DNA from: an uncultured Clostridia bacterium | Lineage (GTDB): Bacteria; Bacillota; Clostridia; Oscillospirales; Acutalibacteraceae | Length of the DNA stretch: 42,360 nt | NCBI GenBank assembly: GCA_947632385.1 | Contig: CANRPD010000016.1 | Span: forward strand, 1 to 42,360 | Direction of reading: 5' to 3' | In this document: piece by piece, positions 3,372 to 28,090 of the stretch | How positions within the stretch are numbered: the first letter of the stretch is position 1 | Layout: each line of letters starts with the position of its first letter | Translations under genes and position numbers: made by a program | Notes under the pieces: model-generated | What the model saw: only the letters and a program-made list of their open reading frames with translations | Databases searched by the model: none | What the model was told of the DNA's origin: nothing

Positions 3372-4544
3372 TCAGAGATCGTGTTGGAGAAAGGCGTGGA
3401 TGCGCTCCAAGGCCTCGGCGATGTGGGCGATGGAGTAGGAGTAGGAGATGCGCACATAGCCCTCGCCGCTGGCGCCGAAGGCGTCCCCCGGCACCACGGC
3501 CACCCGCCGGGCGTAGAGGAGCTTTTCGCAGAATGCCTGGGAGGTGAGGCCCGTGGACTGGATGGACGGGAAGACGTAGAAGGCGCCCTCGGGCTCGAAG
3601 CAGGGCAGGCCCATTTTGTTGAGCCCGTCCACGATGAGCCGCCGGCGCAGGTCGTACTGCCGGCGCATGTAGGCCACGTCCTCGTCGCCGTTTTTCAGGG
3701 CCTCGATGGCGGCATACTGGCTGGTGGTGGGGGCGCTCATGATGGCGAACTGGTGCAGCTTGGTCATCAGGGCCAGGATCTCCCGGGGGCCGGCGGCATA
3801 GCCCAGGCGCCAGCCGGTCATGGAATAGGTCTTGGAGAAGCCGTTGATGAGCACGGTGCGCTCCCGCATTCCCGGCAGGGAGGAAAAGGCCACGTGGGCG
3901 GCCCCGCCGTAGGTCAGTTCGGCGTAGATCTCGTCGGAGAGGACCAGCAGCCCGTGGCGCTCCACCACCCGGGCCACGGCCTCCAGGTCCTCCCGGCGCA
4001 TGACGGCCCCGGTGGGGTTGTTGGGATAGGGCAGGATCAGCAGCTTGCTCTTTGCGGTGATCTTCGCTTCCAGCGCCTCCGCCGTGAGGCGAAAGCCGTT
4101 TTCCGCCCGGGTCTCCACGGTGACGGGCACGCCGCCGGCCATGCGGGTGATGGGCACGTAGCAGACGAAGCTGGGCTCCGGGATGAGCACCTCGTCCCCG
4201 GGGTTCAGGAGAGAGCGCACGCACAGGTCGATGGCCTCGGACCCGCCCACGGTGACCAGGATCTCGGTGGCGGGGTCGTAGTCCACGGCGTAGTGGCGGC
4301 TGAGGAACCGGCCGATCTCCTGGCGCAGGGCGGCAAAGCCCCGGTTGGGGGTGTAGCGGGTGCGGCCCTTTTCCAGGGAGGCGATGCCCTCCTCCCGGAT
4401 GTGCCAGGGGGTGTGGAAGTCCGGCTCGCCCACGGAGAGGGAGATGACGTCCTCCATCTCGTTGGCGATGTCGAAAAACCGGCGGATGCCCGACGGGGGC
4501 AGCTGCTGGAGGATCCGGTTGGTCCGCTGGGTATAGTCAATCAC
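3372..4544 (-). CDS. PLP-dependent class I/II aminotransferase
   Basis: A 390-residue fold-type I aminotransferase of the AspC/AraT/PatA-like group. Visible landmarks are YTPNRGFAALR (substrate loop), [10 protein letters not shown] (PLP phosphate/ring region), the PLP lysine in FSKTYSMTGWRLGYAAGP, and the C-terminal carboxylate-binding arginine in YVRISYS. Start is GTG at 4544 with GGGAG 7 bases before it. The start lies inside the end of the Lrp gene (8-base overlap), which indicates translational coupling. Substrate cannot be fixed from sequence; aromatic, branched-chain or aspartate-type are all possible. The Lrp/AsnC partner suggests it responds to amino acids. Confidence 0.9.
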   Translation of the reverse strand: MIDYTQRTNRILQQLPPSGIRRFFDIANEMEDVISLSVGEPDFHTPWHIREEGIASLEKGRTRYTPNRGFAALRQEIGRFLSRHYAVDYDPATEILVTVGGSEAIDLCVRSLLNPGDEVLIPEPSFVCYVPITRMAGGVPVTVETRAENGFRLTAEALEAKITAKSKLLILPYPNNPTGAVMRREDLEAVARVVERHGLLVLSDEIYAELTYGGAAHVAFSSLPGMRERTVLINGFSKTYSMTGWRLGYAAGPREILALMTKLHQFAIMSAPTTSQYAAIEALKNGDEDVAYMRRQYDLRRRLIVDGLNKMGLPCFEPEGAFYVFPSIQSTGLTSQAFCEKLLYARRVAVVPGDAFGASGEGYVRISYSYSIAHIAEALERIHAFLQHDL

Positions 4545-5034
4545 ACAGGTTGCTCCCTCTCTCGTCGATTTCCTCGTACTCGCTGTGGAAGATCACGCCG
4601 CCCTCCTTGTACCGGGTGAGGACGAAGTGGGTGGCGGTGGACAGGACCCCCTCGATGGGGGCCAGGCGGCGGGCCACGAACATGGCGATGTCCGACATGG
4701 TCTTGCCGGCCACGGTGACGGCCAGGTCAAAGCCGCCGGACATGAGGGCCACGGAGCGGACCTCCGGGAAATTCATGATGCGGCCGGCGATCTCGTCGAA
4801 GCCGGTGTCCTTCTTCGGGGTGACCTTCAACTCGATGAGGGCGGTGGCCGCCGGGGCGGAGACCCGCTCCCAGTTCACCAGGGTGCGGTAGCCCTTGATG
4901 ACGCCCTCCTTTTCCAGCCGGGCCACGGCGCTGCGGACCTCCTCCTCGCTGACGCCCAGCATGGCGGAGAGCTGGGCGGGGGTGAGCTTGGCATCTTCCT
5001 CCAAAAGCTCCAAAAGGGATTCGTTTTCCAGCAT
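4537..5034 (-). CDS. Lrp/AsnC family transcriptional regulator
   Basis: 165 residues. An N-terminal winged helix-turn-helix (about residues 15-55, LTPAQLSAMLGVSEEEVRSA) is followed by a RAM/AsnC ligand-binding domain (about 65-150). Family members form octamers or other assemblies that sense amino acids and control transport and transamination genes. The ATG at 5034 follows AAGGAGG. Because it overlaps the aminotransferase gene, it probably controls its own operon according to that enzyme's substrate or product. The C-terminal 15 residues are acidic and longer than in most relatives. Confidence 0.9.
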   Translation of the reverse strand: MLENESLLELLEEDAKLTPAQLSAMLGVSEEEVRSAVARLEKEGVIKGYRTLVNWERVSAPAATALIELKVTPKKDTGFDEIAGRIMNFPEVRSVALMSGGFDLAVTVAGKTMSDIAMFVARRLAPIEGVLSTATHFVLTRYKEGGVIFHSEYEEIDERGSNLCD

Positions 5035-11181: not shown

Positions 11182-11445
11182 TCACGTTGTTTCCCCAAAG
11201 GCTTCCACCACGGCGGTCACCCGGTCATCCTCCACGGTGGCGAACCCCGGGCCGCAGGCGCCCTGCACCACCGCCTGGCCTGCCCGCAGGCCGGCCACAG
11301 GGCCGGCGCCCAGGGCCAGCAGGGCCTTGGTGTGCCCCGGCCGGATGCCGTAGCTGCCGTCGCTGGCGGTCAGCCGGATGGAATCCACCTCATAGGGGCC
11401 AAAGGCCCCCGTGGGCGTGACGATGCGCAAGCTCAGTGTCCCCAT
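11182..11445 (-). CDS. atpC: ATP synthase epsilon subunit, short form
   Basis: 87 residues that match only the N-terminal beta-sandwich of epsilon (LRIVTPTGAFGPYEV, YGIRPGHTKALLALG). Most bacterial epsilon subunits have about 130-140 residues with a C-terminal helical hairpin that can rise into F1 and block ATP hydrolysis. Here the stop comes at the end of the beta domain and the next in-frame sequence is a terminator, so the helical domain is absent rather than moved. Short epsilon subunits exist in other lineages. It sits 10 bases after atpD, last in the operon. Confidence 0.88.
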   Translation of the reverse strand: MGTLSLRIVTPTGAFGPYEVDSIRLTASDGSYGIRPGHTKALLALGAGPVAGLRAGQAVVQGACGPGFATVEDDRVTAVVEAFGETT

Positions 11446-11455
11446 ACGGCCGCCC

Positions 11456-12865
<1,410 letters not shown>

Positions 12866-12886: not shown

Positions 12887-13705
12887 CTACTCCGCCCGCT
12901 CGGAGGAGGTCTCGATCACATCCGCCGTGACGCTGTTCTGCCGCATCCGGTTGATCTCCCCCTCCAGGGCCTGCACATACTCGGTGGCCGTGTCATAGGC
13001 CGACCGCATGGTCATCAGCGTGGCGGCCTGCGCCCCCAGGGCGGCCTCCAGCACCATCCGGTAAAACATCCCGTGGAACACCGACCGCCCGGTGCGCTCC
13101 AGCACCGCCCCCCGGTCCGGCACCAGCAGGGCCGGGGCCGTGCGGGTGGCCTCGTCGGTGAGGAACAGCTCCCGGATGGCCGGGGTCTGGGTCAGCATGT
13201 TCACATACCGGGCATAGATGAGATACACCCGGGAGACCTTCCCCTCCCGCCGCCACTGGATCAGCTCATCCAGCAGCGCGGCGCTCTGGGCAAAGTCCGG
13301 CACGTCCTCCAAAACCACTTCCCGGGCGGCGGCCACGCCCCGGCTGCGAAAATACGCCACAGCCTTTTTCCCGCAGGGCACCACCCAGGGCTTCTCCAGC
13401 TTTTCCAGCTCCTCCTCGGCAAACCGCAGCAGCTCCGCGTTGTAGCTGCCGCACATGCCCTTGTTGGCGGCCATGACCACCACCGCCGCCGGGGCCTCGG
13501 GGTCCGCGGCGCGCACCAGCTCCCGGTACACCCCGCCGAACTGCTCCACCAGCCGCCGGCACTGCCGGCCGTATTCCCGATACCCCAGGTACATGCTGCT
13601 CAGCCGGGAGAGCTTCACAGTGGCCACCGTGCGCATGGCCTTGGTCAGCTTCTGGGTGGAGCGCACTCCCCGCAGCTGTTTCTTCAGGCTTTGAATGGCA
13701 GGCAT
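12887..13705 (-). CDS. atpG: ATP synthase gamma subunit
   Basis: 272 residues, the central rotor shaft. The N-terminal helix SLKKQLRGVRSTQKLTKAM and a C-terminal helix are recognisable. The C-terminus is more divergent than usual: the conserved Rossmann stretch MAANKGMCGSYN is intact, but the final helix ends INRMRQNSVTADVIETSSERAE rather than the common ITxEIxEIVxGA form. It lies 3 bases after the alpha fusion stop. Divergence of gamma next to a remodelled stator could reflect co-adaptation, but that is speculation. Confidence 0.94.
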   Translation of the reverse strand: MPAIQSLKKQLRGVRSTQKLTKAMRTVATVKLSRLSSMYLGYREYGRQCRRLVEQFGGVYRELVRAADPEAPAAVVVMAANKGMCGSYNAELLRFAEEELEKLEKPWVVPCGKKAVAYFRSRGVAAAREVVLEDVPDFAQSAALLDELIQWRREGKVSRVYLIYARYVNMLTQTPAIRELFLTDEATRTAPALLVPDRGAVLERTGRSVFHGMFYRMVLEAALGAQAATLMTMRSAYDTATEYVQALEGEINRMRQNSVTADVIETSSERAE

Positions 13706-13708
13706 AGG

Positions 13709-15922
13709 CTATGCCCTCGCTTGCCGGAACCGCCCCAGGGCGGCCCGCAGCTGCTCCAGCTCGCTGCCGTCCGCCTTGATGCCGCTCTTCAGGGCGTACA
13801 CCAGGGGCTGTTGGGTCTGTTCAAAGAAATCGTACAGCGCCTGCTCAAAGGCCCCCATGCCGCCGGCGGGCTCGTCGTCGGCATAGCCCTCGCTCACCGC
13901 AAAGAGCAGCAGCGCCTGCTTCCAGTCCTCCAGGGGCTGATACCGCCCCTGCTGCAGCGCCTCCATCAGGTGGGCGCCGGCGTTCAGGGTCTTGCGGGTG
14001 TCCTCGTCCACGTCGCTGCCCAGCTGGGTAAAGTCCTTGAGCTCCCGGTACTGGGCCAAATTGGTCCGCAGGCTGGCCGAGACCTGCTTCATCAGCTTGG
14101 TCTGGGCCGCCCCGCCCACACGGGACACCGACAGCCCCACGTTGATGGCCGGACGCTGCCCCTCATGGAACAGCTCGCTCTCCAAGAAGATCTGCCCGTC
14201 GGTGATGGAGATCACGTTGGTGGGGATGTAGGCCGAAATGTCTCCGGCCAAAGTCTCGATGATGGGCAGCGCCGTGATGGACCCTCCGCCCTGCTCCTCC
14301 GACAGGTGGGCGGAACGCTCCAGCAGCCGGGAGTGCAGGTAGAAGATGTCCCCGGGGTAGGCCTCCCGGCCGGAGGGCCGGTGCAGCAGCAGGGAAAGCT
14401 CCCGATAGGCCACCGCGTGCTTGGACAGGTCGTCATACACGATGAGCACGTCCCGGCCGGCATGCATGAAATACTCCGCCATGGCCGTGCCGGAGAAGGG
14501 CGCGATGTACTGGGTGGCCGCCGAGCCCGAGGCATTGGCCGCCACGATGATGGTGTATTCCATGGCCCCGTACTGGGTCAGCCGGTCTTTGATCTCCGCC
14601 ACGGAGGTCTCCTTCTGGCCGATGGCCACGTAGATGCACACCGTGTCCTTGCCCTTCTGGTTCAAAATGGCGTCCAGGGCGATGGCGGTCTTGCCGGTCT
14701 GCCGGTCGCCGATGATCAGCTCCCGCTGCCCCTTGCCGATGGGCACCAGGGCGTCGATGGCCTTGATGCCGGTGTGCAGGGGCCTATCCACCGGCGCCCG
14801 GTCCAGGATCCCCGGGGCGCGGCACTCGATGGGCCGCCGGTCGGTAACATAGAGGTACCCCTCGCCGTCCACCGGGTTGCCGATGGCGTCCACCACCCGG
14901 CCCAGCAGGGCATCCCCCACCGGCACCGAGGCGATCCGCCCCACACGGCGCACCCGGCTGCCGCTCTCGATGTTCTCATATTCGCCGAAGATCACGCAGC
15001 CGATGCGGTCCCGCTGGATATCCAGCACCATGCCCCGCTCGCCGCATTCGAATTCCACCACTTCGCCGTACATGATGTCCGCCAGGCCGTCCATCCAGCA
15101 GATGCCGTCGGAGACCTGCATCACCCGGCCCAGCTGGTACACGTGGATCTTGGGCTGATACGTCCTCGCCTTCCCCAAAAACTCCGCCAGCACCTCCTGG
15201 GCTTCCTCGTCCGAGGTCACCGGCTCCCGGTTGATGCTCCGCTCGAAGTGGTACAGCTCCTCGGTCACGGTGCCGTCATACACCGTGTCGCCAATGCGCA
15301 GCCGCAGCCCGCCGATGAGCTCCGGGTCCTCCCGCACCCACAGGGAGGTCTTCCCCCCCACGGTGTCCAGCAGGGCGGTGGTGGCGGCGTCCACCCGGTG
15401 CACCAGGTCCTCGCCCAGGGGCCAGGCGGAGGTCAGGGTCACGTACAGCACGTCGTGGTGGCGCAGATACGCCATATCCCCCGGGGTCAGGTGGATCTGC
15501 CCCAGGATCTCCTCCAGCAGCTTGGGCTCCAGGGCCCGCATCCGGCTGAGATACGGCTCCTCCCCAAAGCAGGCCCGCACCGCGTCCTGCATCACGGAGT
15601 AGAACTGCCGCTTGGCCTTCTCGATCATCACCCGGTGCAGCTCCCGGCACTCCCGGGCCTGGGCCTCCCGCACCTGGGCCACTTTCCCCTCCGCCAGGGC
15701 CTGCTCCTCGGCCACGGCGGCGCTGGGCGCCTCCGGGTCCTGGGGGAACTCCGGCTCCACCAGCTCCGGCGGGGTCATCTCCTCCAGGCGCTGGGCCTCG
15801 TCCAGGGCCTCGTTGATGGCTTTTCGGCGGGAAGAAAACAGCTTCACGATGGTCTTGCGGGCAAACAGGACGATCAGCCCCGCCAGCAGCGCAAAGTTGA
15901 TGCAAACATACAGGATCTTCAT
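13709..15922 (-). CDS. Fused ATP synthase b'-like arm, delta C-terminal domain and alpha subunit
   Basis: 737 residues, where alpha alone is about 500. Residues 3-21 form one membrane helix (FALLAGLIVLFARKTIV), as at the N-terminus of a b subunit. Residues 25-118 are charged and helical with a proline-rich break at 50-68. Residues 155-217 match the delta C-terminal domain (VTLTSAWPLG, DPELIGGLRLRIGDTVYDG). From about 244 on it is a complete alpha subunit with Walker A GDRQTGKT at 405-412 and GGAAQTK further on. The six-helix delta N-terminal domain is not visible, and no separate atpH exists. It lies 4 bases after atpF and 3 before atpG. An in-frame GTG at codon 244 (15191-15193), preceded by GAGGAA, could start a free alpha of 494 residues. 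Confidence 0.9.
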   Translation of the reverse strand: MKILYVCINFALLAGLIVLFARKTIVKLFSSRRKAINEALDEAQRLEEMTPPELVEPEFPQDPEAPSAAVAEEQALAEGKVAQVREAQARECRELHRVMIEKAKRQFYSVMQDAVRACFGEEPYLSRMRALEPKLLEEILGQIHLTPGDMAYLRHHDVLYVTLTSAWPLGEDLVHRVDAATTALLDTVGGKTSLWVREDPELIGGLRLRIGDTVYDGTVTEELYHFERSINREPVTSDEEAQEVLAEFLGKARTYQPKIHVYQLGRVMQVSDGICWMDGLADIMYGEVVEFECGERGMVLDIQRDRIGCVIFGEYENIESGSRVRRVGRIASVPVGDALLGRVVDAIGNPVDGEGYLYVTDRRPIECRAPGILDRAPVDRPLHTGIKAIDALVPIGKGQRELIIGDRQTGKTAIALDAILNQKGKDTVCIYVAIGQKETSVAEIKDRLTQYGAMEYTIIVAANASGSAATQYIAPFSGTAMAEYFMHAGRDVLIVYDDLSKHAVAYRELSLLLHRPSGREAYPGDIFYLHSRLLERSAHLSEEQGGGSITALPIIETLAGDISAYIPTNVISITDGQIFLESELFHEGQRPAINVGLSVSRVGGAAQTKLMKQVSASLRTNLAQYRELKDFTQLGSDVDEDTRKTLNAGAHLMEALQQGRYQPLEDWKQALLLFAVSEGYADDEPAGGMGAFEQALYDFFEQTQQPLVYALKSGIKADGSELEQLRAALGRFRQARA

Positions 15923-15926
15923 AGGC

Positions 15927-16346
15927 CTATTTTCCTACCACGCTTTCCGCAAAGGCTTGGGCCAGCTCCTGGGCATGGGCGCCCAGGGTCCGGAGGATCT
16001 CCTCCCGCTCGGCATCGGTCTTCTCCCGAAAGCGGTCCACGGCCTGCACTCGTTCTTCCCGGGCAGCCTCCACCGCCCGGCGGCTCTCGCTGCGGATGGC
16101 CTCCAGGCGCTGGGCCTCGCTCTTCTGCTGGGCGCTGCGGAAGGCCGCTTCCTTTTCAGCCAGCAGGGCCTGGTGCTCCTGCTCCAGCTGGGCGAACCGG
16201 GCCTTTTTGGCCTGTGCTTGGGCGATCTTCTCCTTCCGGGCGTCCATCACCCCCAAAAGGGGCACAAACAGCAGCCGGCGCAGGACCAGCGCCAGCACGC
16301 AGAAGCAGATCACCGTCCACAGGGTCACTGACAGTTGGATGGTCAT
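15927..16346 (-). CDS. atpF: ATP synthase b subunit
   Basis: 139 residues. One N-terminal membrane helix (LWTVICFCVLALVLRRLLFV, residues 9-28) is followed by a long charged coiled coil, the standard peripheral-stalk b subunit, slightly short (155-170 is common). Spacing is 4 bases on each side. Together with the b-like N-terminus of the next gene it gives two different b-type arms, as in b/b' stalks of phototrophs. Confidence 0.92.
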   Translation of the reverse strand: MTIQLSVTLWTVICFCVLALVLRRLLFVPLLGVMDARKEKIAQAQAKKARFAQLEQEHQALLAEKEAAFRSAQQKSEAQRLEAIRSESRRAVEAAREERVQAVDRFREKTDAEREEILRTLGAHAQELAQAFAESVVGK

Positions 16347-16350
16347 GGGC

Positions 16351-16581
16351 TCAGACCTTCGCCACCAGCATGAAGGCGATGAGCAGGCCGTAGATGGTCA
16401 GAGCCTCCATCAGGGCCAGGGAGATGATCAGCGTGGAGCGGATGTCCTTGGCGGCGTCGGGCTGCCGGGCGATGCTCTCCATGGCGGATTTGGCGGTGAG
16501 GCCCTGGGCGATGGCCGGAGCCAGGGTGCTGACGGCGATGGCCAGAGCGGCGGCCAGGGCGATGATTGCGTTGGATGACAT
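16351..16581 (-). CDS. atpE: ATP synthase c subunit
   Basis: 76 residues, two membrane helices joined by the polar loop ARQPDA. The ion-binding carboxylate is Glu59 in MEALTIYG, a context shared with cyanobacterial and chloroplast proton-binding c subunits; the Ser after Glu typical of Na+ rings (EST..Y) is Ala60. Gln26 of the first helix is retained. The usual glycine-packing motif of helix 1 is replaced by alanines: TLAPAIAQG stands where GIGPGVGQG is common. RBS AAGGAG lies before the ATG at 16581. Confidence 0.95.
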
Positions 16582-16626: not shown

Positions 16627-17301
16627 TTACTCCAGCTCAGTGACTTCGTCCAGGTAAATGGACGTGAGCATGGTAAAGACCAGGGCTTGCAGCGCGCAGA
16701 ACAGGATGGACAGCACCATCATCACCACCGGCGCGCCGATGGGCAGCAGGCCGTACAGCTCCTCGGTGACGGTCTCCTCGCCGAAGACGTTGCCGAACAG
16801 CCGCAGGGCCAGGGAGGCGGGCTTCACGAACTCATCCAGCACCAGCAGCGGCAGCATGAAAAACATGGGGCTGACGAACCGCTTGAAGTAGTGCCGGACA
16901 CCGCAGCGCAGCCCGGAGATCTGCAGGAAAAAGAACGTCACCACGCCCAGCCCCGCCGTCACCGACAGGGACGACGTGGGGGCCTTCACGTAGTCCGTCA
17001 GGCCCACCCCGGGGATGAGGCCGGAGTAGTTGGAGACGATGATGAAAATGAACAGCGTGGCCAGAAACGTGAAGTATTTCCGGGACTTTTCCCGGCCCAG
17101 CAGGCCCTCCAGGAAATTGTCCAGGTACTCCACGCCGGTCTCCAGCAGGTTCTGCAAAAAGCCCGGCCGTTCCTTCAGGCGGCTCTTCACCAGCAGGGAC
17201 AGCACCGTGAGCACCGCCACGATGAGCCACATGGCCACCACCTCGCCGGTGACGTCCAGCACGCCGAAGATCGAAAACAGCACCTTGGAACCTTCACCCA
17301 T
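16627..17301 (-). CDS. atpB: ATP synthase a subunit
   Basis: 224 residues, a polytopic membrane protein that forms the ion half-channels against the c-ring. The essential arginine is in SLALRLFGNVFGEE near residues 164-177. Conserved SNYSGLIPG is present in an earlier helix. Length is normal for Firmicutes. The start at 17301 overlaps the previous gene by 8 bases. Ends 45 bases before the c gene. Confidence 0.95.
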   Translation of the reverse strand: MGEGSKVLFSIFGVLDVTGEVVAMWLIVAVLTVLSLLVKSRLKERPGFLQNLLETGVEYLDNFLEGLLGREKSRKYFTFLATLFIFIIVSNYSGLIPGVGLTDYVKAPTSSLSVTAGLGVVTFFFLQISGLRCGVRHYFKRFVSPMFFMLPLLVLDEFVKPASLALRLFGNVFGEETVTEELYGLLPIGAPVVMMVLSILFCALQALVFTMLTSIYLDEVTELE

Positions 17302-17608
17302 TTTTCGGACCTCCTTTCCCGTACCATTCCTCGTTGAGCCGCACCAGCCGGTAGGTGAACCAGATCATGGGCAGCGTCACGCCCAGGACCCCGCCCACCA
17401 GCAGCGGTTTGCGGCCCCAGGGGGTGTATTCGCCCAGGGCAAACAGCGCCACCACGAACAGGATCGTGACGAGCTGGCGCACCACCTGGGCGCTGAGGTA
17501 CCGCTGGGGGTGTTTTTTCAGCACAAAACGGGCAAAAGCATAGCTGGCGGCGGCCAGGCACACGCCCAGACCGAACGCCAGGATGCCGCCCACCCACTCG
17601 TTGGGCAA
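17294..17608 (-). CDS. Small membrane protein at the head of the ATP synthase operon (AtpI-like by position)
   Basis: 104 residues with three to four hydrophobic segments (about 7-28, 46-62, 67-90). Size, topology and position directly before atpB match AtpI, which assists c-ring assembly or Mg uptake in other bacteria. I see no decisive family motif, so the assignment is by context. The start is TTG at 17608 behind AAGGTGG. It overlaps atpB by 8 bases, so it is translationally coupled. Confidence 0.72.
   Translation of the reverse strand: MPNEWVGGILAFGLGVCLAAASYAFARFVLKKHPQRYLSAQVVRQLVTILFVVALFALGEYTPWGRKPLLVGGVLGVTLPMIWFTYRLVRLNEEWYGKGGPKNG

Positions 17609-21451: not shown

Positions 21452-21455
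<4 letters not shown>
20778..21455 (-). CDS. AlkD-like DNA alkylation repair glycosylase
   Basis: 225 residues, all-helical HEAT-like repeats. AlkD-type enzymes remove 3-methyl- and 7-methylpurines by a non-flipping mechanism. The conserved Trp/Asp pair is visible in SWGDCDDF near residue 97-104, and the DNA-contacting arginine region in [13 protein letters not shown] near 132-144. The start is TTG at 21455, overlapping the pyrG stop as TTGA, so it is coupled to pyrG. No functional link to CTP synthesis is known; the pairing probably reflects co-transcription. Confidence 0.85.
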
Positions 21456-23065
<1,610 letters not shown>

Positions 23066-23080
23066 ACTCGATTCCTCCTT

Positions 23081-23923
23081 TTACACCTCGACGTCGCCTT
23101 CAAAGGCGCGCACAGCCTCGCCGGTCATGAGGACGCGCTCCGGGGTGAAGTTTACGGTGAGCTCGCCGCCCCGCAGCAGGACCCGGATATCCTCGCCCGC
23201 CGGGCAGAAGCCCCGGAGCACCGCGGCGGTGACAGCGGCACAGGTGCCGGTGCCGCAGGCCATGGTCTCGCCGCTGCCCCGCTCCCACACCCGCATTTTG
23301 AGGGTATGGGGATCCAGCACCTGGATGAATTCCGTGTTCACCCGGTCGGGGAACAGGGGGTCGTTTTCAAACCGGGGACCGATGCGCTCCAGGTCCAGCG
23401 TATCGGGGTCGGCCCCGAACAGGACGCAGTGGGGATTGCCCATGGAGACGCAGGTGATCTCGTAGACGCCGCCGGCCAGGGAGACCCGCCGGCCCACCAC
23501 CTGCTCTCCGGGGAGATCCACGGGGATCTGGGCGGGGGTCAGCACGGCCCGGCCCATGTCCACGGTGACGGAGACGGCCACGCCGTTTTCCGGGTGGATC
23601 CAGCAGGTCTTGACGCCACTCAGGGTCTCGATGTGCAGCTCTTCCTTCCGGGCCAGGCCGGAGTCGTAGAGGTATTTGGCCACGCAGCGAATGCCGTTGC
23701 CGCACATTTTGCCTTCGCTGCCGTCGGCGTTGAACATGCGCATGCGGCCATCGGCCGTCTCGCTGGGGCAGATGAGGATCACGCCGTCGCCTCCCACCGC
23801 TTTTCGGCGGTCGGAGAGGCGGATAGCCAGCGTCTGGGGATCGTCGACAGGCTGCCGGAAGCAGTCGAAATAGATATAGTCATTGCCGGCGCCGTGCATT
23901 TTGATGAAGTGCAACCTGGGCAT
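23081..23923 (-). CDS. dapF: Diaminopimelate epimerase (free-standing copy)
   Basis: 280 residues. DapF converts LL-DAP to meso-DAP with two catalytic cysteines acting as general acid and base. Both are present: GKMCGNGIRC near residue 78 and TMACGTGTCA near 219. The N-terminal motif KMHGAGNDYIY is canonical. The ATG at 23923 follows AGGAG; upstream in-frame codons overlap the promoter. It is the first gene of a dapF-pyrG-alkD unit. A second DapF domain, fused to CarB, lies just upstream with a less canonical N-terminal motif, so this copy is the more likely true lysine/cell-wall enzyme. Confidence 0.94.
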   Translation of the reverse strand: MPRLHFIKMHGAGNDYIYFDCFRQPVDDPQTLAIRLSDRRKAVGGDGVILICPSETADGRMRMFNADGSEGKMCGNGIRCVAKYLYDSGLARKEELHIETLSGVKTCWIHPENGVAVSVTVDMGRAVLTPAQIPVDLPGEQVVGRRVSLAGGVYEITCVSMGNPHCVLFGADPDTLDLERIGPRFENDPLFPDRVNTEFIQVLDPHTLKMRVWERGSGETMACGTGTCAAVTAAVLRGFCPAGEDIRVLLRGGELTVNFTPERVLMTGEAVRAFEGDVEV

Positions 23924-23970
23924 GGGGGAACGCTCCTTTCTGAGTAACGACACTGAAGACTTTTGACTGT

Positions 23971-23999
23971 ATTGTACCACACATGGACGGGAAGGAAAA
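23971..23999 (-). promoter_or_regulatory. Promoter of dapF-pyrG-alkD
   Basis: Minus strand: weak TTTTCC (23994-23999), 17 bases, extended -10 TGG-TACAAT with TACAAT at 23971-23976. It separates this unit from the carA-carB/dapF unit. Confidence 0.65.
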
Positions 24000-24007
24000 G
24001 GGAATCT

Positions 24008-27000
24008 TTAGACCTCCACCTGGCCGTCGTAGACCTTGGCGGCCCGACCGGTGAGGAAGACGGCTTCGTCGGTGTAGCGAACGACCAGCTCGCCGCCGGG
24101 GAGGATGACCCGGATCTCCCGGCCCTTTTCGCAGAAGCCGTTGAGGGTGGCCGCCACCACCGCGGCGCAGGTGCCGGTGCCGCAGGCCATGGTCTCGCCG
24201 CTGCCCCGCTCCCAGATGCGGGCCTTGAGGGTGGTGCCGTCGATGACCTCCACGAAGCCCACGTTCACCCGGTCCGGGAACAGGGGATCGTTTTCAAACT
24301 GGGGGCCCAGCTCCTCCAGGTCCAGCTTGTCCACCGAGGGGACGAACACCGTGGCGTGGGGGTTGCCCATGGAGCAGCAGGTGATGCTGAAGAGACGGCC
24401 TCCCACGGAGATGGGCTTGGCCACCACCCGTTCGCCCTCCAGCAGCACGGGAATCTGCTTGGGATCCAGCACCGCCCGGCCCATGTCCACGGTGACCTTG
24501 GACACCTGGCCGTTCTTGGTGGTGACCACGCAGTTCCGGACGCCACTGGCGGTGTCGATGCGCAGCAGGTGCTTGCCCTTGCCCTGGGGCACGCCGGTGC
24601 ACCGGCCGGTATCGAACAGGTACTTGGCCACGCAGCGGATGCCGTTGCCGCACATGCGGCCTTCGGAGCCGTCCAGGTTGTACTCCCGCATCTCGGCGTC
24701 GGCCCGGTCGCTGGGACCGATGAGGATCACGCCATCGCCGCCCACGCCGTTGTGCCGGTCGGAGAGGTAGATGGAAAGGAACTCCGGAGAGGGGAACTGG
24801 TTGGCGGGATCGAAGCAGTCGATGTAGATGTAGTCGTTGGAGCAGGTGGTCATCTTGGTGAAGCGGATGGTCTGCCGGTGGGCCCGCAGGTGGTTGATGT
24901 CCACGATCTCGGTGTTGGCCGGGGTGTAGCGGCTCATGAGGGAATCGGCCAGGGCGTTGGCGGTGTCCAGAGCGGTCAGGCAGGGGATGCCCAGGAGACT
25001 GGCCTTGCGGCGGATCTTCACGCTGTCCCGGGCGGGGTCGCGGCCCCGGGCGGAGGTGGAGATGACGTAATCCACCTTGCCGCTTTCCAGCAGGGTGATG
25101 GTGTTCACGGAGCTCTCGTGGATCTTGTCGATGATCTTCACGGAGAGGCCCACCTTGGCCAGCACCAGGGCGGTGCCCGCCGTGGCGTAGAGGGTAAAGC
25201 CCAGGCGGTCGAACTTCTTGGCGATCTCGCCGATCTCGGGCTTGTCCTGGTCCCGGACGGTGATGAACACCCCGCCGCCCTTGCGGTCCAGGTTGTGGTT
25301 GGAGGCGATGAGCCCCTTGTACAGGGCCTCCTCCAGGTTGTTGCCGATACCCAGGACCTCGCCGGTGGATTTCATCTCCGGGCCCAGGTGGGTGTCCACG
25401 TCCTGGAGCTTTTCAAAGGAGAACACGGGGACCTTCACCGCCACGTAGGGAGAGGGCGGATACAGGCCGGTGCCGTAGCCCAGGTCGGTGAGCTTTTCCC
25501 CCAGGCTGACCCGGGTGGCCAGGTCGCACATGGGCACGCCGGTGACCTTGCTGATATAGGGCACGGTGCGGGAGGCCCGGGGATTGACCTCGATGACGTA
25601 GATCTCGCCGCCCATGAGGATGTATTGCAGGTTGATGAGCCCGATGCCGTGGAGCTCCCGACAGAGGGTCTCGGTGGTGGAAATGATCTTGTCCGCCATG
25701 TCGTCATCGATGTCCCCCGCAGGGTACACGGCGATGCTGTCGCCGGAGTGGATGCCCGTGCGCTCCACGTGCTCCATGATGCCGGGGATGAGGATGTTTT
25801 CGCCGTCGCAGATGGCGTCTACCTCGATCTCCATGCCGGAGAGGTACTTGTCGATGAGCACGGGGTTGTCCTGCCGATGGGTGAGGATGATGGCCATGTA
25901 TTCCTGGATGTCCTCGTCGCAATAGGCGATGATCATGTTCTGCCCGCCCAGCACGTAGCTGGGCCGCATGAGCACCGGATAGCCCAGCTCCCGGGCGGCG
26001 TGGAGGGCCTCCTCCTCCGTCATGACGGTGAAGCCCCGAGGCCGTTTGATGCCGGTGCGCTCCAGCAGGGCGTCGAAGCGCTCCCGGTCCTCGGCCATGT
26101 CGATGGTGTCGGCGGAGGAGCCTAAGATCGGGATGTTGTGTGCGGCCAGGGTCTTGGTGAGCTTGATGGCAGTCTGCCCGCCAAAGGCCACCACCACGCC
26201 GATGGGCTTTTCGATGCGCAGGATGTCCAGCACGTCCTCGGGAGACAGGGGCTCGAAATACAGGCGGTCGCCGGTATCGAAGTCAGTGGAAACGGTCTCT
26301 GGGTTGTTGTTGATGAGCACCACCTGATAGCCTAGGCGCTGCAGGGACATGACGCAGTGGACGCTGGCGTAGTCAAACTCGATGCCTTGGCCGATGCGGA
26401 TGGGGCCGGAGCCGATGACCACCACCGTGGGTTTGTCCTGCTTTTCCCGGATGAACGCCAGGGCCTCGTCCTCGCCGCCGGCGCTCTCCAGATCGTAGGT
26501 GGCGTAAAAGTAGGGGGTATGGGCGGCGAATTCGCCGGCACAGGTGTCCACCATGCGGAACGTGGGCTTGCGCTCAAAGGCGACCGGGCAGCCGGAGATC
26601 CGTTCGATGGCGGCGTCGGGGTAGCCCAGCTGCTTGCCCCGGGTGTAGAGGGCCTCGGTGAGGGGACCTTTCGCCAGGTCCCGTTCGTAGTCGATGAGGT
26701 GGGTGAGCTTGGAGAGGAACCAGCAGTCGATCATGGTGCGCTGGTGGAGCTGGGCCACCGAAACGCCCCGCTTGAGGAGCTCGTACACGGCGAAGAGGCG
26801 CTCATCTGTGGCGTGGACGGCGATGTGCCAGAGGGTCTCCTCTTGCTCTTCCGCGAACTTGGGCAGGTTCAGGGTGTCCAGGCCGATCTCCGCGCCCCGG
26901 ACCGCTTTCATCAGGGCCATCTCAAAGGTGTCGGCGATGCTCATGACCTCGCCGGTGGCCTTCATCTGGGTGCCCAGCTCCCGCCGGGCGTACACGAACT

Positions 27001-28090
27001 TGTCAAAGGGCCATTTGGGGAACTTCACCGCCACGTAGTCCAGGGCCGGCTCAAAGGCGGCGTAGGTCTTGCCGGTGACGGCGTTCTGGATCTCGTCCAG
27101 GGTGTAGCCGATGGCGATCTTGGTGGCCACCTTGGCGATGGGATACCCCGTGGCCTTGCTGGCCAGAGCGGAGGACCGGGACACCCGGGGATTCACCTCG
27201 ATGACGGCATATTCAAAGGAGGTGGGATGCAGGGCGAACTGACAGTTGCAGCCGCCCTCCACGCCCAGCTCGTTGATGATCTTCAACGCCGCCGAGCGGA
27301 GCATCTGGTATTCCTTGTCGGAGAGGGTGACGGTGGGGGCGATGACGATGGAATCCCCGGTGTGCACCCCCACGGGGTCCAGGTTCTCCATGGAGCAGAC
27401 GGTGATGGTGTTGCCCGCGTGGTCCCGCATGACCTCGAACTCGATCTCCTTCCACCCGGCGATGCTCTTTTCCACCAGCACCTGGGTGATGGGAGACAGA
27501 GCCAGCCCGTTGGCGGCAGTCTCCCGGAGCTCCTCCACATTGTTGACGATGCCGCCGCCGGAGCCGCCCAGGGTAAAGGCCGGGCGAATGATCACCGGAT
27601 AGCCGATCTCCGCCGCGAAAGCCTCGGCATCCGCCACGGTGTTGACCACCTGGCTGGGGATACAGGGCTGGCCGATGCGCTCCATGGCGTCCTTGAAGAG
27701 CTGCCGGTCCTCGGCCTTGTCGATGGTCTCCGGAGAAGCGCCCAGCAACCGGACATGATGCTTCTCCAGAAAGCCCTCCTTGGCCAGCTGCATGGAGAGC
27801 GTCAGGCCGGTCTGACCGCCGAAACCGGACAGGATGCTGTCCGGCTTTTCCTTTTCGATGATGCGCTTGACGGTGGTAAGGTCCAGCGGCTCGATATAGA
27901 TGCGGTCCGCCATGGCCCGGTCGGTCATGATGGTGGCGGGGTTGGAATTGACCAGCACGATCTCCACGCCGTCCTCCCGCAGCGCCCGGCAGGCCTGGGT
28001 GCCCGCATAGTCGAACTCCGCAGCCTGGCCGATGACGATGGGGCCGGAGCCGATCACCAGCACCTTTTTGATAGCACGATTGAATGGCAT
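24008..28090 (-). CDS. carB: Carbamoyl-phosphate synthase large subunit fused to a diaminopimelate epimerase domain
   Basis: 1360 residues, about 290 more than CarB alone. Residues 1 to about 1065 are a full CarB: two ATP-grasp halves (KVLVIGSGPIVIGQAAEFDY at the start; VVVIGSGPIRIGQGIEFDYA about 550 on) and the MGS-like regulatory domain (LYATAGTAL, STSARGRDPARD). CarB normally ends at about ENTEIVDIN. Here VDINHL is followed after 6 residues by a DapF domain (1075-1360) with both catalytic Cys, 1147 in MCGNGIRC and 1303 in ACGTGTCA. There is no stop, RBS or Met at the junction (about 24868). The DapF N-terminal motif is KMTTCSNDYIY instead of KMHGxGNDY. RBS GGGAG before the ATG at 28090, 40 bases after carA. 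Confidence 0.93.
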   Translation of the reverse strand: MPFNRAIKKVLVIGSGPIVIGQAAEFDYAGTQACRALREDGVEIVLVNSNPATIMTDRAMADRIYIEPLDLTTVKRIIEKEKPDSILSGFGGQTGLTLSMQLAKEGFLEKHHVRLLGASPETIDKAEDRQLFKDAMERIGQPCIPSQVVNTVADAEAFAAEIGYPVIIRPAFTLGGSGGGIVNNVEELRETAANGLALSPITQVLVEKSIAGWKEIEFEVMRDHAGNTITVCSMENLDPVGVHTGDSIVIAPTVTLSDKEYQMLRSAALKIINELGVEGGCNCQFALHPTSFEYAVIEVNPRVSRSSALASKATGYPIAKVATKIAIGYTLDEIQNAVTGKTYAAFEPALDYVAVKFPKWPFDKFVYARRELGTQMKATGEVMSIADTFEMALMKAVRGAEIGLDTLNLPKFAEEQEETLWHIAVHATDERLFAVYELLKRGVSVAQLHQRTMIDCWFLSKLTHLIDYERDLAKGPLTEALYTRGKQLGYPDAAIERISGCPVAFERKPTFRMVDTCAGEFAAHTPYFYATYDLESAGGEDEALAFIREKQDKPTVVVIGSGPIRIGQGIEFDYASVHCVMSLQRLGYQVVLINNNPETVSTDFDTGDRLYFEPLSPEDVLDILRIEKPIGVVVAFGGQTAIKLTKTLAAHNIPILGSSADTIDMAEDRERFDALLERTGIKRPRGFTVMTEEEALHAARELGYPVLMRPSYVLGGQNMIIAYCDEDIQEYMAIILTHRQDNPVLIDKYLSGMEIEVDAICDGENILIPGIMEHVERTGIHSGDSIAVYPAGDIDDDMADKIISTTETLCRELHGIGLINLQYILMGGEIYVIEVNPRASRTVPYISKVTGVPMCDLATRVSLGEKLTDLGYGTGLYPPSPYVAVKVPVFSFEKLQDVDTHLGPEMKSTGEVLGIGNNLEEALYKGLIASNHNLDRKGGGVFITVRDQDKPEIGEIAKKFDRLGFTLYATAGTALVLAKVGLSVKIIDKIHESSVNTITLLESGKVDYVISTSARGRDPARDSVKIRRKASLLGIPCLTALDTANALADSLMSRYTPANTEIVDINHLRAHRQTIRFTKMTTCSNDYIYIDCFDPANQFPSPEFLSIYLSDRHNGVGGDGVILIGPSDRADAEMREYNLDGSEGRMCGNGIRCVAKYLFDTGRCTGVPQGKGKHLLRIDTASGVRNCVVTTKNGQVSKVTVDMGRAVLDPKQIPVLLEGERVVAKPISVGGRLFSITCCSMGNPHATVFVPSVDKLDLEELGPQFENDPLFPDRVNVGFVEVIDGTTLKARIWERGSGETMACGTGTCAAVVAATLNGFCEKGREIRVILPGGELVVRYTDEAVFLTGRAAKVYDGQVEV

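Follow-up and report, generated by a model that had tools for sequence, protein, structure and literature searches.

The alpha subunit of the F-type ATP synthase described here, from an uncultured Clostridia bacterium, is encoded as the last part of a longer gene: a single frame (13709..15922, minus strand) joins a transmembrane b'-type arm and the C-terminal domain (CTD) of the delta/OSCP subunit to a complete alpha, and the delta N-terminal domain (NTD) is absent. This composition is confirmed by the open reading frame, by Pfam and NCBIfam matches, and by 28 further intact homologues. The frame lies in a stretch of 42,360 nucleotides (contig CANRPD010000016.1), hereafter the window. From the gene content we hypothesize that its product belongs to a working F-type ATP synthase in which each alpha would carry its own half-stalk, most likely giving up to three b/b' stalks, a reading to which we assign a probability of about 0.6.

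The fused gene starts with ATG and comprises 737 codons without internal stops. Its b' arm has a single transmembrane segment at residues 3-21 (15860..15916, minus strand; hydropathy window 2.59 from residue 3), followed at residues 22-145 (15488..15859, minus strand) by a charged arm that is presumably helical and includes a poorly conserved proline-rich and acidic stretch at about residues 48-72. An N-terminal transmembrane helix and a match to ATP-synt_B together mark the arm as b/b'-like, the window's own Pfam match lying under the cut-off of 28 bits (24.0 bits over residues 3-106 of the fusion, 25.7 bits for the N-terminal part alone). OSCP and ATP-synt_B are both matched at E of at most 0.01 in all 16 members of an alignment of such N-terminal parts (A1, window included), and the A1 profile aligned by hhalign to the Parageobacillus b subunit with a probability of 90.2 (residues 3-47 on 23-67, that is, membrane segment and tether). 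The delta CTD occupies residues 153-229 (15236..15466, minus strand), where OSCP scores 38.1 bits (cut-off 22.3) with only positions 97-171 of its 172 covered; columns 156-231 of the A1 profile fall on residues 103-176 of Parageobacillus delta with a probability of 97.8. Residues 232-261 (15140..15229, minus strand) form a linker and the N-terminal stretch of alpha, and a complete alpha follows at residues 262-737 (13712..15139, minus strand): ATP-synt_ab_N, ATP-synt_ab and ATP-synt_ab_C are all matched within residues 265-730 (Pfam), and the F-type model TIGR00962 (atpA) scores 707.4 bits over residues 248-735 (cut-off 484.45). GC content is 67.3% in the arm part and 66.7% in the alpha part, so near equal that composition shows no seam. 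The earlier note on this DNA had described one frame with a membrane helix, an arm, a delta region and a full alpha, and the open reading frame, Pfam and TIGR00962 agree with it; its further claim, of a covalent bond between stator and F1, follows from the single open frame.

The gene order on the minus strand is I-a-c-b-[fusion]-gamma-beta-epsilon, so that the fused gene is the fifth. It is preceded by an atpI-like gene (17294..17608), assigned by position and length with an ATP-synt_I score of 14.1 bits (below the cut-off of 25.1), and by genes for the a subunit (16627..17301), a c subunit of 76 amino acids (16351..16581) whose site motif, EALTIY, we take to be of the H+ type, and a separate short b subunit of 139 amino acids (15927..16346), the likely partner of b'. 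It is followed by gamma (12887..13705), beta (11456..12847; Pfam and NCBIfam) and an epsilon of 87 amino acids that consists of the N-terminal domain only (11182..11445); the a, c, b, gamma and epsilon genes were recognized by Pfam. Genes for a, c, b, alpha, gamma, beta and epsilon thus stand together, in the window and in its relatives, as expected of an F-type operon. Directly downstream of the operon is a gene for a Na+/H+ antiporter family protein (PF03553; 9354..11015, minus strand). The window also holds a second apparent gene fusion (24008..28090, minus strand), in which a carbamoyl-phosphate synthase large chain (residues 7-1039) is followed by a diaminopimelate epimerase domain (residues 1238-1352 and an earlier stretch); a separate DapF-like open reading frame (23081..23980) and a CTP synthase gene (21452..23065) adjoin it.

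We assembled 29 fusion genes: the window's, eight from named records and 20 from other genomes (L056 was excluded, being on the same contig as L225). Their pairwise identities range from 51 to 99%, with values of at least 97% only for L226 and L227, and in all 29 the frame is intact, b lies upstream, and gamma and beta lie downstream. The a and c genes are present in 28 of the operons (L057 starts too late), epsilon likewise in 28 (L055 ends too early), and an atpI-like gene was recognized in 22. Each of the 29 arms has one hydrophobic segment in its first 140 residues, near the N-terminus. The separate b is short in these operons, with a median of 141 amino acids and putative lengths of 130 in L057 and 168 in L062, compared with 157-170 in seven operons whose alpha carries the delta CTD and no b' (deltaCTD-alpha). 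Epsilon, where a b'-delta-alpha operon includes it (28 cases: L211-L230, L057-L063 and the window), measures 81-121 amino acids; elsewhere it measures 137-145 amino acids (L064, L067, L069, L070, L099) or 87 (L127). The length of the delta-alpha linker is nearly constant, with changes of one or two residues in L028, L059, L062 and L063. Median dN/dS was 0.17 for the membrane segment and tether, 0.56 for the proline-rich and acidic hinge, 0.19 for the b' helix, 0.11 for the delta CTD, 0.21 for the linker and 0.07 for alpha, with maxima above 1 in the hinge and the linker; these values come from 36 pairs with identities of 70-97%, 16-27 of them usable per region, and are rough because dS, at 1.4-1.9, is near saturation. 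The arm is under purifying selection.

The genome that contains the window (1.96 Mb, 97.8% complete) was searched for OSCP and for F-type alpha. No delta was found outside the fused frame and hence no atpH, no F-type alpha besides the fused gene, and no separate full-length delta with an NTD, the mark of the canonical one-stalk enzyme. Among 25 fusion-bearing genomes a second F-type alpha is absent in 21 (in 13 of 17 if only genomes with a completeness of 90% or more are considered), a count that includes one genome with the fusion split on two contigs (G022) and one with it cut by a contig end (G458), and is present in four (G175, G277, G411, G664). The delta match inside the fusion is restricted to profile positions 95-172 in all 25. 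Three of the four genomes with a second alpha (G277, G411, G664) have a full-length delta beside it; G175 has, at its second alpha, a second delta match (profile 34-172, with stops spanned), and a further delta match in G585 is under the cut-off. In most hosts, therefore, the fused gene has to supply the alphas for all three positions. The earlier note had pointed to the lack of atpH in the operon and had named two signs that would speak against its reading, a separate atpH together with only a ~54-kDa alpha in cells, and a stop or frameshift between the delta and alpha parts: the only OSCP match of the genome lies inside the fused frame, and the 28 further homologues are uninterrupted. It had also posed three arms, unless free alpha is made as well, as the alternative, rightly so given the 21 genomes without a second alpha and the lack of a conserved start in the linker (see below). 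The window's genome also encodes RnfC (457 bits), and two rotary-ATPase-like frames on its contig C4 (478 and 592 amino acids) have the sizes of V-type B and A; the ATP synthase may plausibly help an Rnf-based fermenter to exploit its small proton-motive force.

The b'-delta-alpha chain has a patchy distribution. Of 394 genomes in the window's order, 18 have a fusion with the complete b'-delta part (17 and the window's own; G458 is counted though cut by a contig end), three of the 21 matches being delta or b alone and not counted. Sparse samples of the class (391 genomes) and the phylum (398 genomes) yielded no b'-delta-alpha besides the window's own; the remaining matches in these samples consist of a delta or b part only, including a delta CTD within a 612-amino-acid frame that is perhaps a deltaCTD-alpha (G1073). 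The fusions fall in four families of one order (f1, f19, f20, f21). The full chain is found in eight of 300 genomes of the window's family, and among 29 genomes of its genus two have the full chain (the window's and G022), 15 a deltaCTD-alpha, six a separate alpha and six no match at the threshold; G342 has no match though its genus (g153) has fusions. Among named records, nine of 80 loci kept (L055-L063) carry the fusion. Five of their record titles name gut or faecal samples (sheep, goat, roe deer, horse and water buffalo); one record is titled Chloroflexi (L063), the others Bacillota or parts of it. Fusion types without b' are uncounted among the 31 of these 80 loci that are absent from our P-loop table, whose pattern these loci lack (L057 and L060 were added by hand).

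Phylogenetic analysis suggests that delta was probably joined to alpha on two or more occasions. We built a tree from 95 alpha domains without their arms, in which all 15 b'-delta-alpha rows group together (SH-aLRT 100) and L064 is the next to join this clade (SH-aLRT 99); copies (L001, L002, L034, L056), a sequence cut by a contig end (L028) and one that was too short (L006) were omitted. A second clade (SH-aLRT 98) consists of 24 deltaCTD-alphas, classed by length and N-terminal sequence, four full delta-alphas, and L043. A single origin of all delta-alpha fusions was rejected (p-AU 0.005; 53 of the 95 rows, quick tree), in a test weakened by the fact that the fused-alpha group was named after the tree was seen. 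Two separate origins would in turn suggest that the fusion is useful. Adjoining a deltaCTD-alpha gene, L064 encodes a separate b' of 319 amino acids (3958-4917, plus strand) with two tandem delta-CTD-like repeats that are 32% identical to each other (E 2e-14), Pfam detecting only the b part. We infer from this arrangement that L064 may represent an intermediate step toward the full b'-delta-alpha chain; no similar intermediate was found in the 394 genomes of the window's order, where the sole match of the search (G585) is itself a b'-delta-alpha fusion. Full-length delta can also precede alpha, as in L067, where Pfam matches include the NTD; L040, L044 and L051 are placed with it by length and sequence, the four alphas measuring 668-675 amino acids. 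Such chains imply that fusion alone neither requires loss of the NTD nor proves multiple stalks. The alpha of L043 (922-3270, plus strand; 782 amino acids) has a full delta with a second copy of the delta NTD in front of it, seen as two OSCP stretches.

We propose the following structure for the enzyme. The N-terminal b' helix would anchor in the membrane and pair with one separate short b; the b' arm would extend alongside F1 as far as the delta CTD, which would pass through the linker of about 30 residues into the N-terminus of alpha at the top of F1. In ordinary enzymes the NTD of the single delta is located on the three-fold axis of F1, an arrangement that has been argued to limit stalks to one (PMC12229609). 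This domain is missing here, and its absence would be what allows multiple stalks. As there is one alpha gene, each enzyme is expected to have three arms unless free alpha is also made, and if the product of the fused gene fills all three alpha positions, up to three b/b' stalks would result. Each of these would be a potential site for an a subunit, so that more than one a and a raised H+/ATP ratio may be predicted: an a subunit on each stalk would mean more H+ per ATP, and ATP made at low proton-motive force. In the fullest version, which is possible and which we put forward only tentatively, three covalent b'-deltaCTD-alpha chains, three b and three a subunits would surround one c-ring as a natural three-fold stator. 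If this were true, H+ per ATP would equal the number of c subunits, above the ratios known from other F-type enzymes, and gut anaerobes could synthesize ATP even when the proton-motive force is very low, or pump large numbers of H+ for each ATP. A lineage with a built-in stalk and without the presumed stalk-limiting delta domain would make the one-stalk rule directly testable in nature.

Other readings of the same genes have to be weighed against a multi-stalk enzyme, and it counts against this enzyme that most particles of the engineered one discussed below had no stalk or one (15 and 51%; PMC12229609). An artefact of assembly or annotation, or a gene in decay, has in its favour that the named relatives are nearly all MAGs; against 29 intact homologues that are 51-99% identical, purifying selection on the arm, and a complete alpha with the other subunits, this explanation is negligible, and a frameshift or lost stop as the cause of the fusion is rejected because the intact homologues include genes from other assemblies. 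It is conceivable, though improbable, that all three alphas are tethered while a single b/b' pair holds the one a subunit, the two remaining arms serving as passive tethers. Each operon has one a gene (operons only were considered), and nothing requires more than one a; in the engineered enzyme discussed below, however, an a subunit lies beside every observed stalk (PMC12229609).

A single stalk could also be retained if internal initiation or proteolysis of the linker freed alpha, F1 then containing two plain alphas and one b'-deltaCTD-alpha. This reading, which we consider unlikely, keeps the classical geometry. The linker ranks with the less conserved regions of the chain (mean majority frequency 0.40), some ATG occurs at residues 232-268 in 20 of the 29 genes, and an in-frame GTG preceded by a Shine-Dalgarno (SD)-like GAGGA is found just before alpha in the window, L028 and L029. 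Against it, the 29 genes have no start codon at a conserved place in the linker, the commonest position being residue 244 (ATG, GTG or TTG in eight). Linker starts with at least five of six SD matches occur in only two of the 29, the window and L223 (the same gene as L029), in each case at residue 244. In-frame starts at this level have a frequency of 0.0022 per residue per gene at residues 232-262, a background rate given that the four remaining regions have 0.0021, 0.0016, 0 and 0.0017, in a test of low power: native starts have weak SD sequences (three or four of six matches in 16 of 17), and a weak internal start could therefore be missed. ATG is present at residues 284 and 298 in all 29 genes and at 277 in 18, all within the beta-barrel of alpha.

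The nearest counterpart to the proposed multi-stalk enzyme is an engineered one. Ueno et al. 2025 report a Bacillus PS3 FoF1 with the delta NTD deleted and the CTD fused to alpha (PMC12229609; PDB 9JC1), and this chain is the best PDB match of the window protein (E 7e-184, residues 188-713 on 30-555), with a net equal delta-to-alpha spacing. That enzyme forms as many as three stalks, every one with an a subunit beside it, and has an H+/ATP ratio of 5.8 compared with 3.0; its cryo-EM particles with 0, 1, 2 and 3 stalks made up 15, 51, 26 and 8%, and its authors hold dissociation of stalks on the grid to be likely (PMC12229609). By their account every ATP synthase so far has just one a subunit, and what is needed is a multi-stalk enzyme whose stalks stay firmly bound, theirs seeming to dissociate (PMC12229609); the covalent b'-delta-alpha chain is such a design, since b' in the same chain means that the stalk cannot dissociate from F1. 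In both enzymes the delta NTD is missing, the delta CTD is fused to the N-terminus of alpha, and the epsilon CTD is missing, and the window's genome has no other alpha. The window chain differs in being natural and in including b', whose partner is a short b, whereas PS3 has a b2 homodimer. Ueno et al. also name natural deltaCTD-alpha chains, from Acidaminococcus fermentans and as UniProt G4Q3K6 and A0A1I2C5T3 (PMC12229609). These resemble the window chain in having the delta CTD on alpha and lacking the delta NTD, but in the six deltaCTD-alpha operons that we read (L064 aside) the chain lacks b', and one longer b is encoded separately. The deltaCTD-alphas of the second clade, to which the Acidaminococcus sequences may belong, have, by tree and AU test, an origin separate from that of b'-delta-alpha.

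Several other rotary ATPases share single features with the window enzyme. The operon of the N-ATPase (alternate F1F0) has no atpH gene. In this it resembles the window's operon, from which its gene order differs; the order given for it in one source is without delta (PMC5709465). An N-ATPase is rejected, the window alpha scoring 599.3 bits where TIGR03324 requires 750.5 and passing the ordinary atpA model. Fusions of b and delta are described from mycobacteria and Gordonia (PMC8617483, PMC5709465), and that of Mycobacterium smegmatis likewise joins delta to a b-type arm, a separate b' being the partner there (PMC8617483); it differs in having a full delta with an extra helical bundle, a separate alpha, and one copy per enzyme (PMC8617483). 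A mycobacterial-type b-delta is rejected, as the window chain lacks the delta NTD and includes alpha. F-type ATP synthases have been classed by their one peripheral stalk, and V- and A-type ATPases by three and two (PMC6131620). More than one stalk round a three-fold head, as described for V- and A-type enzymes, is what we propose here; V-ATPase stalks are separate EG heterodimers (PMC6131620), whereas those of the window enzyme would be built of F-type subunits. In a search of open-access papers we found no report of a b'-delta-alpha chain. The deltaCTD-alpha fusion is already in print, and the b'-containing chain appears to be the new part.
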